Below are positions 15,546 to 23,164 of a DNA stretch of 64,000 nt, piece by piece. Numbering within the stretch: position 1 is the first letter of the stretch; every line of letters begins with the position of its first letter. Source of the DNA: an uncultured Pseudomonadota bacterium (GTDB lineage: Bacteria; Pseudomonadota; Gammaproteobacteria; Steroidobacterales; Steroidobacteraceae); assembly GCA_902826225.1 (NCBI GenBank), contig CADEED010000004.1, positions 1 to 64,000 on the forward strand, given 5' to 3'. The translations under genes and the position numbers were made by a program. The notes under the pieces are model-generated. The model was not told where the DNA came from. It was given only the letters and a program-made list of their open reading frames with translations, and made no database searches.

Positions 15546-16199
15546 ATGGAAGATTTGCGGCTGACGATCGGCAACAAGAATTACTCGTCTTGGTCGCTGC
15601 GCCCGTGGATTCTGCTGAAGCACCTGGGCCTCGAATTCAGCGAACGCGTCCTGCCGCTCGACACGCCGCAGTTCGCCCGCGACATCGCCGCGTTGAGCCC
15701 GTCGCGTCGCGTACCGCTGCTCACGCACGGCGCGCTCACCATCTGGGACTCGCTCGCGATCTGCGAGTATGTCTGCGAGCTCACCGGCCGCGGTTGGCCC
15801 TCCGATCGTGCGGCGCGCGCCGTGGCGCGTTCGGTGTGCGCCGAGATGCACTCGGGTTTCAGCATCCTGCGCTCGCAATGGCCGATGAATGCGCGTGCCG
15901 AAGGACGTCGAACCGCCCCGAATCCGGAACGCGATGCGGACATCGCGCGCATCGAGGATCTGTGGAACGATTGCCGCACGCGTTACGGCGCCGGCGGCCC
16001 GTGGTTGTTCGGTGAGTACAGCGTCGCCGACGCGATGTTCGCGCCCGTCGTCCTGCGATTCCGCACGTACGGCCCGCGGCTGCGGGCGCCGTCGGCGGCC
16101 TATGCCGCCACGGTGCGGGCGGATGTGCATTTGCGCGATTGGCTGACCAGCGCGGCGGCGGAAACCTGGACAATCGAAGATTCGGAGATCGGACGATGA
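15546..16199 (+). CDS. Glutathione S-transferase family protein (YfcF-like)
   Basis: A 217-residue GST with the N-terminal IGNKNYSSWSLRPWILL stretch (residues 8-24) typical of this serine-rich branch, the cis-proline segment RRVPLL and the WDSLAICEYV glutathione contact region. The C-terminal domain holds LFGEYSVADAMFAPV. The TGA overlaps the ATG of the peptidase gene, so the two genes are probably an operon. No direct functional link between a GST and an S9 peptidase is known to me. Confidence 0.88.
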   Translation: MEDLRLTIGNKNYSSWSLRPWILLKHLGLEFSERVLPLDTPQFARDIAALSPSRRVPLLTHGALTIWDSLAICEYVCELTGRGWPSDRAARAVARSVCAEMHSGFSILRSQWPMNARAEGRRTAPNPERDADIARIEDLWNDCRTRYGAGGPWLFGEYSVADAMFAPVVLRFRTYGPRLRAPSAAYAATVRADVHLRDWLTSAAAETWTIEDSEIGR

Positions 16200-18238
16200 A
16201 AACGAAAGCCTGGCTCGCCCTGTCGTGCGTGTTCTGCCTGCCGGTCATGGCGCAGGAAACATCGCGCGTGTTCACGCCGACGGATCTCAACGCGCTCGCG
16301 CGGGTGAGCGATCCGCAGGTCTCGCCGAACGGGCGCCTCGTCGTCTACGTGCAGCGCGAAACCGACTTCGACGCCAATCGCGGCCGCAACGACCTCTGGC
16401 TGCTCGATCTGTCGACCGCCGGTGCGACGCCGCGGCGCCTCACGCAACACTCCGCCAACGACACGCATCCGCGCTGGTCCGTCGACGGCACCGGCGTGTT
16501 CTTCCTCTCGACCCGAGGGGGTTCGAGCCAGGTGTGGCGGCTGCCGCTCAACGGCGGCGAGGCGGTGCAGATCACCGATCTGCCGCTCGACATCGGTTCG
16601 TTCCGCCTGTCGGCGGGCGGGGGCCGCATCGCATTTCCGCTGGACGTGTTCCCCGACTGCGCCGATCTGAAGTGCACGCGCGACCGGCTCGATGCGGCCG
16701 CGAAGAACAAGCCCTCGGGCCGGCAATTCGCCGAACTGTTCGTGCGGCATTGGGACGAGTGGCGCAACGGCACGCGGTCGAACCTGTTCGTCGCGCCGCT
16801 GGTCAACGGCGGCCGCGCCGGCACCCCCGTCAACGTGAGCAGTGCGCTCGCGGCAGACGTTCCGTCGAAGCCGTTCGGTGGCGCCGAGGAATACACGTTC
16901 AGCCCCGACGGCGGTCGCGTGGTCTTCAGCGCACGCGTCGCCGGCCGCGAGGAGGCGTGGTCCACGAATTTCGACCTGTACGAAGTGCGGTCCGACGGAA
17001 GCACCAGGCCCAGGAACCTCACCGCGAACAATCCGGCGTGGGACACGCAACCCGTCTATCTCGCAAACGGCGACCTCGCCTGGCTCGCAATGAAGCGACC
17101 GGGTTTCGAAGCCGACCGGTTCGGCATCCGGATCTTGCGCAAGGGCGCGGTGCGCGAAATCGCCGCGGATTGGGATCGCTCGGTAGGCCATCTCGACGTC
17201 GCGCGCGACGGCCGCACGCTGCTCGCCACCGCGAACGATCTCGGCCAGAACGTGCTGTTCAGCGTCGACGCCGGCAGCGGCCGCATCGCGAAGCTCACGG
17301 GCGCGGGCTCGGTCGGCGAGTTCTCGACGACGCCCGGAGGCGCTGTCGTCGTGTGGCACGACCTCGCCACTCCGCCCGATCTCTACGCGACCGGTGGCGC
17401 CGCGCCGCGCCGCCTCACGAACGTCAACGCCGCGCGGCTGGGCGCGCGCAGCCTCGGCGAGTTCGAGCAGTACTCGTTCAGGGGCTGGAACGGCGAAACC
17501 GTCTACGGCTACGTCATGAAGCCCGCGACGTTCGCGGCCGGCGGCCAATACCCGATCGCGTTCATCGTGCACGGCGGCCCGCAGGTGAGCTTCGCCAACC
17601 AGTGGAACTGGCGCTGGAACGCGCAGACATACGCCGCGCGCGGATACGGCGTCGTCTTCATCGACTTCCACGGTTCACCCGGCTACGGCCAGGCGTTCAC
17701 CGACTCCATCAGCGAGCACTGGGGCGATCGCCCGTTCGAGGATCTGCAGAAAGGTCTGGCCGCCGCCCTGGAGAAGTACTCGTGGCTCGACGGTAAACGG
17801 GCATGCTCGCTGGGCGCATCCTACGGCGGCTACATGCAGAACTGGATCGCCGGCAACTGGAGCGATGGCTTCCGCTGCATCGTGAACCACGCGGGAATCT
17901 TCGACACGCGCTCGATGTACTACACGACCGAGGAGTTGTGGTTCACGGAATGGGAGAACGGCGGCCCGTACCACGACGCGCCGCAGGTCCACGAGAAGTT
18001 CAACCCAGCGAATTTCGTGAAGCAATGGAAGACGCCGATGCTCGTGACGCACGGCGAGAAGGATTTCCGCGTGCCGTACACTCAGGGCATCGCGACTTTC
18101 ACGGCGCTGCAGCGGCGCGGCGTCGAGAGCCGGTTGCTGGTGTTCCCCGACGAGAACCACTGGGTGCTGAAGCCGGCCAACAACGTGCAGTGGTACGGCG
18201 CCATCCTCGACTGGCTCGACGCGCACACGAAGAAGTAG
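16196..18238 (+). CDS. Exported S9-family serine peptidase (prolyl oligopeptidase superfamily)
   Basis: A 680-residue periplasmic peptidase. The signal peptide (residues 1-19) ends at VMAQE. A seven-bladed WD40-like/beta-propeller region with TolB-type repeats (SPNGRLVVY, SPDGGRVVF) gates the C-terminal alpha/beta-hydrolase domain. The catalytic triad appears complete: Ser542 in GASYGG, Asp623 in GEKDFRVP and His655 in DENHW. The architecture resembles dipeptidyl peptidase 5 or acylaminoacyl peptidase, so it probably removes dipeptides or acylated residues from peptides. An upstream extension of the frame lies inside the GST gene. Confidence 0.93.
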   Translation: MKTKAWLALSCVFCLPVMAQETSRVFTPTDLNALARVSDPQVSPNGRLVVYVQRETDFDANRGRNDLWLLDLSTAGATPRRLTQHSANDTHPRWSVDGTGVFFLSTRGGSSQVWRLPLNGGEAVQITDLPLDIGSFRLSAGGGRIAFPLDVFPDCADLKCTRDRLDAAAKNKPSGRQFAELFVRHWDEWRNGTRSNLFVAPLVNGGRAGTPVNVSSALAADVPSKPFGGAEEYTFSPDGGRVVFSARVAGREEAWSTNFDLYEVRSDGSTRPRNLTANNPAWDTQPVYLANGDLAWLAMKRPGFEADRFGIRILRKGAVREIAADWDRSVGHLDVARDGRTLLATANDLGQNVLFSVDAGSGRIAKLTGAGSVGEFSTTPGGAVVVWHDLATPPDLYATGGAAPRRLTNVNAARLGARSLGEFEQYSFRGWNGETVYGYVMKPATFAAGGQYPIAFIVHGGPQVSFANQWNWRWNAQTYAARGYGVVFIDFHGSPGYGQAFTDSISEHWGDRPFEDLQKGLAAALEKYSWLDGKRACSLGASYGGYMQNWIAGNWSDGFRCIVNHAGIFDTRSMYYTTEELWFTEWENGGPYHDAPQVHEKFNPANFVKQWKTPMLVTHGEKDFRVPYTQGIATFTALQRRGVESRLLVFPDENHWVLKPANNVQWYGAILDWLDAHTKK

Positions 18239-18272: not shown

Positions 18273-18746
18273 TCACTTGCGCTTGAAGTGTTCCGGCGGC
18301 GAACCGCTGCAGGAATAGCTCAGCGAGTTGCCGTCCTCGGCCGGCTGGATGTCGCAGGTGCCCGCGGGCCGCACGTCCTTGGGCAACAACGCCGTCAGCA
18401 GCTCCGGGTTTTCGCGCAGATCGCGCCACTGCCCTTCCGTGGCGAACATCAACGCGCGCTGCAGGATCTTCTTGCCGTCTTTCGCCAGCGCGACGTCGAC
18501 GATGCGCGCCGTCACCGCCCCGTTCGGTGCATGGTGTTCCACGTAGATGGCCTCGTCAGTCACCATGCGCGCGCGCACCGGCGCGATGAACAGCTGCGAG
18601 CCGCCGTCGCTCATGTACTGCCCTGCCGTCGACTTGAAGAACTTGTCGACCGCCGCACGATTCTTCTGCTCCGCCGTCATGCAGGCCGCGAGCAGCACGG
18701 ACATCGCGACCGCCATGGCCACGGGTTGCGCGAAACGAATGCTCAT
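18273..18746 (-). CDS. Uncharacterised lipoprotein
   Basis: A 157-residue protein with a signal peptide and lipobox LLAAC (Cys23), so it is predicted to be membrane-anchored in the periplasm. The mature part includes KFFKSTAGQYMSDGGSQLF and ends with two cysteines in GTCDIQPAEDG and SYSCSG that could form a disulfide. It shows faint resemblance to the CpcT/CpeT lipocalin-like family, mainly the central YVEHHAPNG strand, too weak to name it. GAGAAGGG lies before the ATG. It follows the ATP-grasp gene by 11 bp and probably belongs to the same operon. Confidence 0.75.
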   Translation of the reverse strand: MSIRFAQPVAMAVAMSVLLAACMTAEQKNRAAVDKFFKSTAGQYMSDGGSQLFIAPVRARMVTDEAIYVEHHAPNGAVTARIVDVALAKDGKKILQRALMFATEGQWRDLRENPELLTALLPKDVRPAGTCDIQPAEDGNSLSYSCSGSPPEHFKRK

Positions 18747-18757
18747 GAGGACCCTTC

Positions 18758-19792
18758 TCAGCCGTAGTACGCGCGCCACTCTGCCTGATAACCGCCGCCA
18801 AGCGTGAGCAATTTCTCCAACAACTCCGGGTACTTGATGCCCGCGGCCAGCGCGGACTGCGCGAAGTCCTCGTCCGCCGCGAGGTTCGGATTCGGATTCG
18901 CTTCGATCACGTAGATCTGGCCGTCGGCGGTCATTCGGTAGTCGACGCGCGCGCACCCGGAGAGGCCAAGCGATCGATAGACGCGGCGCGAGAGCTTGTC
19001 CAGGCGCGCGACGAGCGCGGGCGCGAGATCCTTCGCCTCGTGCGTGTCGATGCCGTGCTTCTTCTGATACTTCTTGTCCCACTTCACGCGCCGCGTCGCG
19101 ATGCCCGCGCCGGATTCCGCGACCGACCCGAACTTCATCTCCCAGATCGGCAGCCGCGTGAGACGGTCGTTGCCCATCACGCCGATGTAGAGCTCGCGCC
19201 CCTCGATGTACTCCTCGACCAGCGCGTCCGTCTGCACCTGCTCGTGCACGAACTCGATGCGTTGCCTGAGCGCGGCCTTGTCGGTGACGATCGATGCCTG
19301 CGAGATGCCGAGCGACGCGTCTTCGGTCGTCGACTTCACGAACAGCGGGTACTTGATCTTGCGCGGCAGCCGGAGCTTGATGCCGCGCCTGAATACGGCG
19401 AACTGCGGCGACGGGATTCGGTGATAGCTCATGAGTTGCTTGCACAGCGGCTTGTCGCGCGACAGCAGCAGCCCGCGGGGATTGCAGCCCGTGTACGGCT
19501 GGCGCAGCAGCTCGAGGAACGCGACCACGTGCTGGTCGTACGTGACGATGCCGTCGAACTCCTCGAGCAGGTTGAAGACGATCTCGGGCTTGAACTCGGT
19601 GATGACGCTGCGCAGCTCCTCGACGGAGTCGGAGATCCCGAGGCAGCGCACTTCGTGCCCCGACTTCTTGAGAGTCGAGACCACGTCGTACTCCGTACGC
19701 CATTCTTCGATTGCTTTGTCGCTGTGACCGTCGAGTGAATCGGGCGGGACCAGCGTTGAGTGCATCACGACGAGCGTGCGCAGTCGCTTCAT
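18758..19792 (-). CDS. ATP-grasp ligase, D-Ala-D-Ala ligase/RimK-like
   Basis: A 344-residue ATP-grasp enzyme, which would join a carboxylate to an amine by way of an acyl phosphate. Recognisable parts are the N-terminal Ddl-like domain (NLLEEF, then QPYTGCNPRGLLLSRDKPLCKQLM), the central lid (KYPLFVKSTTEDASLGIS) and the metal-binding C-terminal part CARVDYRMTADGQIYVIEANPNPNL. It is not a cell-wall Ddl: it lacks the usual neighbours, and its second substrate is unknown. It overlaps the upstream zincin gene by 4 bp, which strongly suggests that the two proteins act together. Confidence 0.88.
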   Translation of the reverse strand: MKRLRTLVVMHSTLVPPDSLDGHSDKAIEEWRTEYDVVSTLKKSGHEVRCLGISDSVEELRSVITEFKPEIVFNLLEEFDGIVTYDQHVVAFLELLRQPYTGCNPRGLLLSRDKPLCKQLMSYHRIPSPQFAVFRRGIKLRLPRKIKYPLFVKSTTEDASLGISQASIVTDKAALRQRIEFVHEQVQTDALVEEYIEGRELYIGVMGNDRLTRLPIWEMKFGSVAESGAGIATRRVKWDKKYQKKHGIDTHEAKDLAPALVARLDKLSRRVYRSLGLSGCARVDYRMTADGQIYVIEANPNPNLAADEDFAQSALAAGIKYPELLEKLLTLGGGYQAEWRAYYG

Positions 19793-20835
19793 AGCGCGAG
19801 TGTCGGACTTTCACCCTGCGCGTACAAGCGCGTCAGATAAACTAGCATCCAGCGTGAGTGCCGCAGGGCGTCTCGACGGCTGCCGCGCACCCACAATCCT
19901 AGCTTCTCGGCGCGCTCGACCATGATGCGCAGGATCTGTTCGACGTTGTAACGCTCCGCGTCGAGCTCGCGCATCGCGGAGTTCACGAGATTCGTGGTGT
20001 GCGCGCGCAGGAACGTGGCCGCGCGGCGCGACTCGGACTTCAGCCGCTCGGGCGCGAACACGCGCTCCAGCAGGTGGTCGGTGACCGTGCGGCGATACAT
20101 GCTGTGGCGGCGCAGCTTGCGGCGATAGTGGTCGGCCAGGGTGCGCGTGTTCTCGCGCAACGGCTCGATGACCTCGCGGTTGCGCACCGACGCGCGCCGC
20201 GTGCGCACTTCGCTCAGCAGGTCGTCGACGAACTCGAGCTTGTGGAACGCGGGCCACTGCGCGTACGTGCGGCGCCACGAAGAATTCGGCTTCAGCCAGA
20301 CGGCGAAGGTCTCCGCGAAATCCTCGCAGGGATGCGCCTGCGCGTACCACTCGCCGAGATGCTGCACGTAGCGGCGGCTGCCGGGGCGCGCGCGGTACGT
20401 GTCGGGATACGGCAGCGATGCCGGACCGAACACCTCGCGCCAGCGCTTGCGCCGGCGCAGCCGGTAGGCGGTATCGATGGCATGGCCCGCCTCGTGGCGC
20501 AGGATGCGCATCGCGCTCTCGGCGCTGCCGCCCTCCACGTTGCGCATCATCCGGCGTTCGAGACGCTCAAGCCGCGGATGAGCGAGATAGAACGGCACGG
20601 CGATCCCGGGCACGCCGTCCGGCGAGAACCACTCTTCGGACAGCCAGACATGCGGACGAAATCCGATCTGGCGCTTGTCGAGCTCGCGGTAGAGCCGGCG
20701 CACGCGCCGGGCGACCGGCGTGCGTTCGATGCGCAGCTTGAGGTCGCAGAAGCGCAGCCCGAGCAATTGCTCGTCGGTCATGCGAGTCCAGGAGCGCGTG
20801 GCCCGCCGGACGCGGGGAGTGCGCGTGGACGACAT
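19789..20835 (-). CDS. Putative zinc metallopeptidase (Peptidase_Mx-like zincin)
   Basis: A 348-residue arginine-rich protein with the zinc motif HEAGH (His114, Glu115, His118). Downstream HPCEDFAETF (168-177) supplies the likely third ligand and matches the H-P-x-E-D-x-A-E-T-F pattern of Peptidase_Mx. There is no signal peptide, so it is probably cytoplasmic. It is the first gene of an operon with the ATP-grasp ligase, overlapping it by four bases. TAGAGT lies seven bases before the ATG and no Shine-Dalgarno is present. A peptidase and a ligase side by side suggest processing or assembly of a peptide; the substrate is unknown. Confidence 0.85.
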   Translation of the reverse strand: MSSTRTPRVRRATRSWTRMTDEQLLGLRFCDLKLRIERTPVARRVRRLYRELDKRQIGFRPHVWLSEEWFSPDGVPGIAVPFYLAHPRLERLERRMMRNVEGGSAESAMRILRHEAGHAIDTAYRLRRRKRWREVFGPASLPYPDTYRARPGSRRYVQHLGEWYAQAHPCEDFAETFAVWLKPNSSWRRTYAQWPAFHKLEFVDDLLSEVRTRRASVRNREVIEPLRENTRTLADHYRRKLRRHSMYRRTVTDHLLERVFAPERLKSESRRAATFLRAHTTNLVNSAMRELDAERYNVEQILRIMVERAEKLGLWVRGSRRDALRHSRWMLVYLTRLYAQGESPTLAL

Positions 20836-20871: not shown

Positions 20872-22344
20872 TCAGCTTCCGAGCGTCACGAGCGCGTGAG
20901 TGAGAAGTCGATCCGCACGGTCGATGATCACTTCCCGTTTCATCAGGCTCTTGCGCCAGATTCCGGGAATGGCACTCACGCCGTGGTACGCACCGGCGAG
21001 CTGGCCGTGGACCGCGCCGACCACGTCCGAGTCCGCGCCCAGGTTGGCGGCATGCAGCGCGCCCTCCTTGAATGTCCCGCTGCGCTGGAAAATCCACAGT
21101 GCCGCCTCGAGCGCCTGCAGGACATGGCCGCCGCCGCCGATCTCCTCCGCCGGCTTTCGCGTGAACCCGCCCTCGTACAGCGCGAGCGACTCCGGGCGGG
21201 TGGTGGCGGTGACCCACCACTCGCGCGGCGGGCGCAGCACGGCCGTCTTGTCGCGCCCGGCGAGCGCCAGGTGCAGCATGGCGGCCAGCAGGCGGACGCA
21301 GTCGAGCACCAGGGGGGCCTGCGCCGTGACCCGCGCCGCCTCGGCGGCACGGGCGACGGCAGCCGGCGGATCATCGAAGAAATACATGACGGTGGGCGCG
21401 ACCCGCGACAGCGGATCCTTGTCGAGCTGGTCGGGATCATGGGACCCGGCGAACGGCTGGCGCTTGTACAGCGCGTTCGCGAGCGAGCGCGCGACATTGG
21501 CCGAGATCCCGACGCACTGCCCCGTCGAGCTGCCGTAGCCCTCGCGCTGCCAGCGCGCGTACCGGTCGACCTGGTCACGCGCATCGAACCCGTCGCGCTC
21601 GATCAGGCTTTCGGCCAGCAGCAGGGCCATGGCCGTGTCGTCCGTCCAGGCGCCGCGGGGCAGGTCGAAGGGGCCACCCCCCAGCAGATCGCCGACGGGC
21701 GGAAACGTCCCGGGCTTGCGGAACTGGGTGTGCGCGGCGAGCGCATCGCCCACGGCCAGGCCCACGAGCGCCCCCTGGAAGCGTTCGCGCAGCGTCCGGG
21801 CGGCATCCATGACCTCGGGGGCGCTGGTCGGGTCCGCACGCGATACCCAGTCCCGCACGTACGCGTACTGCTCCTGGGTCTCGGGCACCTCCGGCCAGGT
21901 GTCAGAGCGGTCGCTCTGCTTCCACAGGTCGTTGAGCCGTCGCAGGGCCTGCTCGCCCGAGAGGCCGCCTTCGACGAGGTGGCAGGCGACCACTGTGCCC
22001 GTGCGCCCGATCCCCGCGCGACAGTGCACGTAGACACGCCGGCCCGCGCGCAACGCGCCATCGAGTTCCGCGAGGATCTCCGCCATGTGCTCCGGCGCGC
22101 GCGGCACGCCATGGTCCGGGATGGGCCGGCGGACGTGCTGGACACTCTCGGGTAGATAGCCGTCGTACGGCGGCAGCTCGCCCGCCTCGGTCAGGTCGAG
22201 GAAGAAATCGAAGCCGGCGCCAAGCAGCGCGCCAAGACGACGCTCGATCTCCTGCTCGTTCTTGCCGCCCGGATACTTGCCCGCGAGGAAGCGGTCCGGA
22301 ACGACCCAATAGGATTCAGCGAGGGGCTTGATGACGCTCGTCAT
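20872..22344 (-). CDS. Fusion of dual-specificity phosphatase and ADP-ribosylglycohydrolase
   Basis: A 490-residue two-domain protein. Residues 1-170 form a protein-tyrosine/dual-specificity phosphatase with the complete P-loop [10 protein letters not shown] (Cys108, Arg114) and the acid loop PIPDHGVP (Asp77). Residues 185-480 form an ADP-ribosylglycohydrolase with the metal-binding GAWTDDT (Thr234-Asp235-Asp236) and the C-terminal GADSD (Asp438, Asp440) that completes the two-metal site. Both active sites look intact. It would remove ADP-ribose and phosphate from targets still unknown. Its ATG lies 29 bp inside ttcA, so it is probably co-transcribed. A shorter start would cut the phosphatase fold. 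Confidence 0.92.
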
Positions 22345-23164
22345 CGAGACTCTTGAAGTCGAAGACCTGCGGGTCGGCGAGATGTCCTGCCTCGACGTTG
22401 CGCAGCGCCGAGAAGATGGATTCCGTGCGGCCCGGGTACTCCCGTTCCCACTCCGCCAGCATGCGTTTCACCTGGCGACGCTGCGCGTTGTCCTGCGACC
22501 CGCACAGTTTGCAGGGAATGATCGGGAAGCCGCGCGCCCGCGAATAACGCTCGATTTGCGATTCCGCGACGTACGCGAGCGGGCGGATGACGATGTGCCG
22601 GCCGTCTTCCGACTTGAGCTTGGGCGCCATCGCCTTGAGCCGGCCGCCAAAGAACATGTTGAGGAACAGCGTCTCGACGATGTCGTCGCGATGATGGCCG
22701 AGCGCGATCTTCGTGATCCCGTTCTCCGCCGCGTAGCGATACAGCGCGCCGCGCCGCAGGCGCGAGCACAGCCCGCACATCGTCTTGCCTTCGGGGATCA
22801 CGCGCTTCACCACGCTGTAGGTGTCCTGCTCGATCACGTGGAACGGCACGCCGGCGCCGCGCAGGTAGTTGGGCAGCACCTCGGCCGGGAAGTCCGGCTG
22901 CTTCTGGTCGAGGTTCACGGCGACGAGATCGAAATCGACCGGCGCGGAGCGCTTGAGCGACAGCAGGATGTCGAGCAGCGTGTACGAGTCCTTGCCGCCC
23001 GAGAGGCAGACCATCACGCGGTCGCCAGCGGAGATCATCGAATAGTCCTCGATCGCCTTGCCCACGAGCCCGCGCAGCTGCGCGCCGAGCTTCTTCGCGG
23101 TTTGCGAAGGCCATTCGGGCGAGTTCTCGACCGGGGTCTCGAGTGTCTGGGGGGTCGCGTTCAT
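22316..23164 (-). CDS. ttcA: tRNA 2-thiocytidine(32) synthetase TtcA
   Basis: Thiolates cytidine 32 of certain tRNAs, using ATP and an iron-sulfur cluster. The PP-loop SGGKDS (about residues 55-60) activates the tRNA by adenylation. CGLC (about 131-134) and the CKLCGSQ motif (about 219-225) supply the cluster cysteines. The length of 282 residues and the ending [12 protein letters not shown] are usual. It follows the membrane protein gene at 23177 by only 12 bp. The 3' end overlaps the phosphatase-glycohydrolase gene. Confidence 0.96.

Follow-up and report, generated by a model that had tools for sequence, protein, structure and literature searches.

A putative zinc metallopeptidase and a Ddl-fold ATP-grasp ligase encoded as a translationally coupled pair in several bacterial phyla

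What might a metallopeptidase and a ligase expected to form amide bonds do together when their reading frames overlap? The question is raised by two neighbouring genes in the window, by which we mean the whole stretch of 64,000 nucleotides analysed (contig CADEED010000004.1, from an uncultured member of the Steroidobacteraceae). A first-pass annotation, made from the sequence alone, had proposed them as a candidate peptide-modification system. The features concerned are the following:

19789..20835, minus strand: zincin gene, 348 aa, for a putative zinc metallopeptidase of Peptidase_Mx type that looks cytosolic
18758..19792, minus strand: ATP-grasp ligase gene, Ddl fold, 344 aa, with an acidic E308-D309 pair
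19789..19792, minus strand: overlap of the zincin and ligase genes, 4 bp stop/start, ATGA on the coding strand
18273..18746, minus strand: lipoprotein gene, 157 aa, 11 bp 3′ of the ligase gene
20872..22344, minus strand: DSP-phosphatase/ADP-ribosylglycohydrolase fusion (PF03747 and PF22784), just upstream of the zincin gene, given for context only

The ligase start codon sits within the zincin stop codon, and both this overlap and the position of the lipoprotein gene are as the first-pass annotation gave them. The lipoprotein, whose lipobox reads LAAC by eye, matches only CpeT in Pfam, below threshold, and is perhaps encoded in the same transcription unit as the pair. On the upstream side a TtcA-like PP-loop gene is followed by the fusion and then by the zincin gene (20872-23164, minus strand); on the other side the gene of a secreted-looking S9 oligopeptidase converges on the pair (16139-18238, plus strand). 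An earlier description of the pair was not found in searches of open-licence PMC papers.

Linkage, co-occurrence and one-sided dependence

The genomes of 84,980 species were scanned with the zincin alignment, and the 80 loci named here are the best 80 of 471 confirmed. Their sources are Steroidobacteraceae with further Pseudomonadota, Planctomycetota, Acidobacteriota and a single Myxococcota bin; zincin loci L113, L120 and L133 are from cultured planctomycetes of the Rhodopirellula group, and genus g151 carries the pair. The ligase gene lies directly downstream of the zincin gene, on the same strand, in 77 of these best 80 of 471 loci. The exceptions are L081, where a ligase start is visible at the contig end, L126, whose contig stops about 80 bp past the zincin gene, and L095, where 385 bp of contig are left and the ligase was not detected. 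Among near relatives the two genes adjoin in all 25 loci obtained. Conservation beyond close relatives, on which the original proposal had been staked, is thus observed over several phyla.

The exact 4-bp overlap recurs in 71 of the 84 measurable pairs, with start codons picked by script; a gap separates the genes in 12 pairs and one pair overlaps by 14 bp. In some GC-rich loci, where ORF calls gave antisense frames, ligases and zincins were located by profile search. Fusions of the two families, envisaged at first pass, were not seen among the loci examined.

Main-type zincins (E < 1e-100) have a ligase at most 400 bp downstream in 26/26 places in Planctomycetota and in 18/23 in Acidobacteriota, the other five of the 23 being without a ligase within 400 bp. 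Of the 24 places with a divergent zincin in these two phyla, nine have a ligase no more than 400 bp away, which is downstream in the same orientation in four cases and convergent in five; the remaining 15, spread over both phyla, have none within that distance. The partners read beside the divergent zincins belong to another ligase group, which is without the full acidic pair. Since both the orientations and the ligase groups are separate, simple hitch-hiking in one operon is an unlikely source of the association. Maximum-likelihood trees of 65 zincins and of their 65 ligases agree in their main groups, which mostly follow the phyla, with a few placements that differ or are unsure; the agreement of the main groups suggests that the couple is old and has mostly been inherited together. 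No zincin was found on the plasmids of PLSDB. The plasmid ligases listed are 28-34% paralogues, and the three inspected all lie in other contexts.

In a sample of 398 Pseudomonadota genomes, a full-length zincin occurs in nine and the ligase (E <= 1e-60) in the same nine, side by side; eight of the nine belong to one genus of another class. Any zincin match at all was obtained in 44 of the 398; in 35 of them it is confined to the short motif region in other proteins resembling Peptidase_Mx. Among 149 Planctomycetota the zincin is present in 33 genomes, all of them within the 47 that have the ligase (E <= 1e-40), and among 149 Acidobacteriota in 34, all within the 49 that have the ligase. The hypergeometric probabilities, which are not corrected for kinship and genome size, are ~3e-22 and ~4e-22, respectively. 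The co-occurrence check suggested at first pass therefore finds the family ligase in 9/9, 33/33 and 34/34 zincin-bearing genomes, and the pairing is far above chance. The linkage is supported as well as comparative genomics can support one. Among 59 relatives the family ligase is present in 31 of 32 zincin-bearing genomes; the exception, and the sole case of a zincin without the family ligase, is G037, whose zincin gene is itself cut by a contig end.

The window's own family (f1, 36 genomes) has both genes in 29 genomes, the ligase only in six and neither in one. The six ligase-only genomes are near-complete and keep the ligase in place; the zincin was sought by profile in their ligase regions and is absent from them. 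In three of them the DSP-phosphatase/ADP-ribosylglycohydrolase fusion immediately precedes the ligase (Pfam); in the remaining three the gene at that place resembles an ADP-ribosylglycohydrolase by eye. Genera g10 and g12 each include both states, which indicates that the zincin was lost more than once, or regained. The ligase is also found without the zincin in G528, G690 and G738. Since the ligase persists on its own, it is the core of the pair, with the zincin as an accessory and dependent partner. This dispensability of the zincin is new with respect to the first-pass annotation.

Two further observations concern these regions. The gene order around the fusion is kept in zincin-less relatives, in which the fusion directly precedes the ligase. 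A single stop codon is present inside the matched ligase stretch in G565:C99, G583:C726, G655:C51, G020:C46, G026:C80, G044:C4 and G057:C22, and may reflect decay, a sequencing error or an overrun of the match.

Neighbourhood of the pair

At first pass the lipoprotein had been grouped with the two enzymes. By tblastn, eight of the 25 close loci and five of the 80 wider ones (best 80 of 471) have relatives of it; it is lineage-specific and was rejected as a third module member outside close relatives. Clustering of ORFs over the 80 loci (best 80 of 471) found no third gene conserved across lineages, its output being limited to Steroidobacteraceae-type synteny and antisense artefacts of GC-rich frames. 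Of the best 80 of 471 loci, 25, of the Steroidobacteraceae type, have a TtcA-like gene upstream in the same orientation; an M32 carboxypeptidase gene occurs in 23 and an S9 peptidase gene in 12. L091 and L097 are among the loci bearing the S9 peptidase. Pfam scans of the neighbours of the pair in other lineages returned only unrelated housekeeping genes.

A conserved short frame near the pair, which the first-pass annotation had suggested looking for, was not found: translated comparison of the 800-bp flanks (81 upstream, 71 downstream) gave no frame conserved across lineages. Cross-lineage matches in the upstream flanks are few and weak (E 5e-5 to 1e-3), and those in the downstream flanks, on the opposite strand, are probably to the S9 peptidase gene. 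Pfam showed no cell-wall gene among ten flanking ORFs between 13373 and 28864 (2 of the 10 have no match), in agreement with the initial remark that nothing else for cell-wall synthesis is nearby. In the absence of a conserved third gene, the neighbourhood does not name the chemistry.

Related ligases occur in several other settings. In two Acidobacteriota loci, L217 (G627:C188, 7939-10601) and L219 (G747:C5, 169-2602), the ligase follows a 4′-phosphopantetheinyl transferase and a calcineurin-like phosphoesterase, with a 4-bp overlap in L219; the zincin of both lies kilobases off. Ddl-like ATP-grasp ligases in tandem pairs are found repeatedly in Acidobacteriota and Planctomycetota (for example G618:C244, G634:C80, G685:C15, G698:C57 and G484:C96) and are a separate system. 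On the Thioflavicoccus plasmid pTHIMO01 (L154, 2557-8038) a ligase paralogue lies with genes for a diaminobutyrate aminotransferase, SbnA, an ornithine cyclodeaminase and a KamA-family radical SAM protein, perhaps a small cluster for a diaminopropionate peptide. The rhizobial symbiosis plasmid pNGR234a (L152, 5905-8987) carries a paralogous ATP-grasp ligase upstream of a CapA-family gene, and ligases similar to it are present on other rhizobial plasmids.

Features of the zincin and the ligase

The zincin carries HEAGH at residues 114-118 and HPCEDFAETF further on. Its description at first pass as Peptidase_Mx-like is borne out by Pfam PF15887, which it matches with 32.8 bits against a cut-off of 27, over residues 111-181 only; two relatives score slightly below the cut-off (26.3 and 26.7 bits). 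Residues H114, E115, H118, Y164, H168, E171, D172 and E175 are invariant in 63/63 aligned relatives, and the HExxH zinc motif and HPxED region are present in all 63 rows. Among 16 divergent zincins, three have Asp in place of E171 and none in place of E175, an observation that bears on the third zinc ligand. To judge from these residues the protein looks active. No signal peptide is obvious by eye. Neither the zincin nor the ligase matched the PADLOC models of known anti-phage defence proteins, and PHROGs gave no match.

Like Peptidase_Mx proteins (PF15887; the solved member 4l7a aligns with the zincin at Z 5.5 over 172 residues), the zincin has HExxH and an HPxEDxAE region. Unlike them, it is matched over only 70 residues and has parts of its own: a conserved N-terminal region outside the Peptidase_Mx match and a helical C-terminal part of about 130 residues (214-348), to which hardly any of the structures listed, if any, extended. 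In its AlphaFold2 model (mean pLDDT 90.5), residues ~29-213 match zincins of the PPEP, lethal-factor and Peptidase_Mx types with Z 5.5-7.8, the range for PPEP, MtfA and lethal-factor zincins being 5.3-7.8; since even the best match (7.8) lies below the line of Z 8 used in the comparison, the likeness to the PPEP/lethal-factor type of fold is suggestive only. The zincin resembles PPEP, MtfA and lethal factor in having HExxH followed by a Tyr and a Glu seven residues apart (Y164 and E171), the spacing of PPEP and related zincins. It differs from these proteins in showing no obvious secretion signal and in being paired with a ligase.

The ligase had been called Ddl/RimK-like. The Ddl half of that assignment stands, with 98.8 bits to PF07478 (Dala_Dala_lig_C); RimK was rejected at 16.1 bits against the Pfam cut-off of 21. 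Comparison of the structure model (mean pLDDT 91.0) indicates a full Ddl fold (Z ~32 to Ddl enzymes), the ATP-grasp residues K153, R282, D284, E297 and N299 are invariant in 54/54, and Y242, the equivalent of the omega-loop Tyr in an alignment with Ddl, is retained in 49/54. The reaction class, ATP-dependent amide formation, follows from the family.

The ligase also differs from Ddl (TIGR01205/PRK01372) in several respects. The best NCBIfam Ddl models score it at about half of their cut-offs (120.8 against 243 and 119.4 against 245.65 bits). Position 308 is acidic in 54/54 and position 309 in 53/54, where Ddl has, after PGMT, the Ser-Leu that binds the carboxylate of the acceptor; the residue equivalent to S150 of Ddl is Ala or Gly. 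No cell-wall context is apparent around the ligase, and the genome encodes an ordinary Ddl elsewhere, which keeps the Ddl sequence at the clamp site and has murG, murB, ftsQ and ftsZ around it (recognised by eye). Because of this separate Ddl in the mur-fts cluster and the loss of the carboxylate clamp, an identity as ordinary Ddl, which the first-pass annotation had counted against its own proposal, was rejected.

The acidic pair at the clamp site would make D-alanine an unsuitable acceptor; a cationic acceptor, or one lacking a free carboxylate, fits better. An acidic pair of the E308-D309 type is also present in the unlinked ligases of G546, G468, G596 and G528 and in the ligase-only genomes, and is missing from the plasmid paralogues. 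As the second ligase group is without the full pair, the idea of a cationic acceptor cannot cover all zincin partners.

Possible activities of the pair

We give a probability of roughly one half to a reading in which the zincin and the ligase are a self-contained cytosolic module, the ligase making an amide and the zincin trimming or hydrolysing the product. The ligase would activate a carboxylate as an acyl phosphate with ATP and couple this to an amine, the usual reaction of Ddl-fold ATP-grasp ligases; the acceptor would be other than D-alanine and either cationic or carboxylate-free; and the zincin peptidase would then trim or hydrolyse what has been made. That the zincin acts on the ligase product is the simplest account of the linkage, the translational coupling, the re-pairing with a second ligase group and the one-sided loss, and the two enzymes would accordingly meet on one peptide-like product. 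Against this reading weigh the genomes that have the ligase alone, the main-type and divergent zincins with no ligase at 400 bp or less, a neighbourhood that names no chemistry, a second ligase group without the acidic pair and zincin fold matches below Z 8. A comparable arrangement is that of glutathionylspermidine synthetase/amidase, in which an ATP-dependent amide former with a cationic acceptor is fused to a cysteine amidase that undoes its work. The likeness lies in an amide former tied to a hydrolase; here the hydrolase is a separate zincin instead of a fused cysteine amidase. Within this shared make-and-cut frame the product may be a tag on a protein, a small metabolite of peptide nature or a ribosomal peptide.

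Tentatively, the pair may write and erase a protein tag: the ligase would attach a single amino acid or a short peptide to one of the host's proteins and the zincin would take it off again, in the manner of tubulin-tyrosine ligase with its carboxypeptidases. The one-sided dependence and translational coupling, the housekeeping surroundings in several lineages with no biosynthetic cluster around the pair, and a zincin that looks active would all suit such a role. However, the ligase is compact and Ddl-like and its Y242, in 49/54, suits small substrates; its plasmid relatives of 30-34% identity include one among small-molecule genes (Thioflavicoccus), and no target protein is visible. It is rather doubtful that the pair runs a widespread, reversible amide-tagging cycle, in which a Ddl-derived ligase whose acceptor site binds cations would put an amino acid or peptide on a cellular target or polyamine-like metabolite, the co-translated zincin would remove or trim the tag, and a second lineage would have swapped its ligase.

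Maturation of a ribosomal peptide, with the ligase modifying a precursor and the zincin cutting it in the manner of graspetides, is improbable. The same two enzyme classes meet in graspetide loci: passages of PMC8939145 describe zincin peptidases occurring with ATP-grasp ligases there and mention two zincin-superfamily peptidases for some of these loci. The present pair differs in having no cross-lineage precursor frame in the 800-bp flanks (81 upstream, 71 downstream), a comparison that a distant or lineage-specific precursor would escape, and in its ligase, which is of another, Ddl type.

The zincin might instead serve the ligase alone, as its partner or regulator in a complex, with a peptidase activity directed elsewhere than at the ligase product. 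Coupling and one-sided dependence would fit such a subunit-like protein, but the invariance of the catalytic residues and the retention of the zincin beside two ligase groups, also convergently, point to catalysis and make this account hardly credible. Van-type systems make a variant cell-wall dipeptide and clear the normal one. A similar arrangement here, with the ligase making D-Ala-D-X or the like and the zincin clearing the normal dipeptide, would agree with the Ddl fold and is the least probable of these readings, given the separate Ddl in the mur-fts cluster, the lost clamp, a zincin with no signal peptide obvious by eye and flanking ORFs in which the scan found no cell-wall gene; a role of the pair in the cell wall is unlikely.

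The proposed module of an amide-forming ligase and a zincin acting on its product concerns a strict couple that spans several phyla, cultured planctomycetes of the Rhodopirellula group included. Many systems rely on ligase-hydrolase couples to govern small peptides and protein tags, and the coupling, the swap of acid for serine at the clamp and the natural ligase-only genomes provide predictions that are directly testable.
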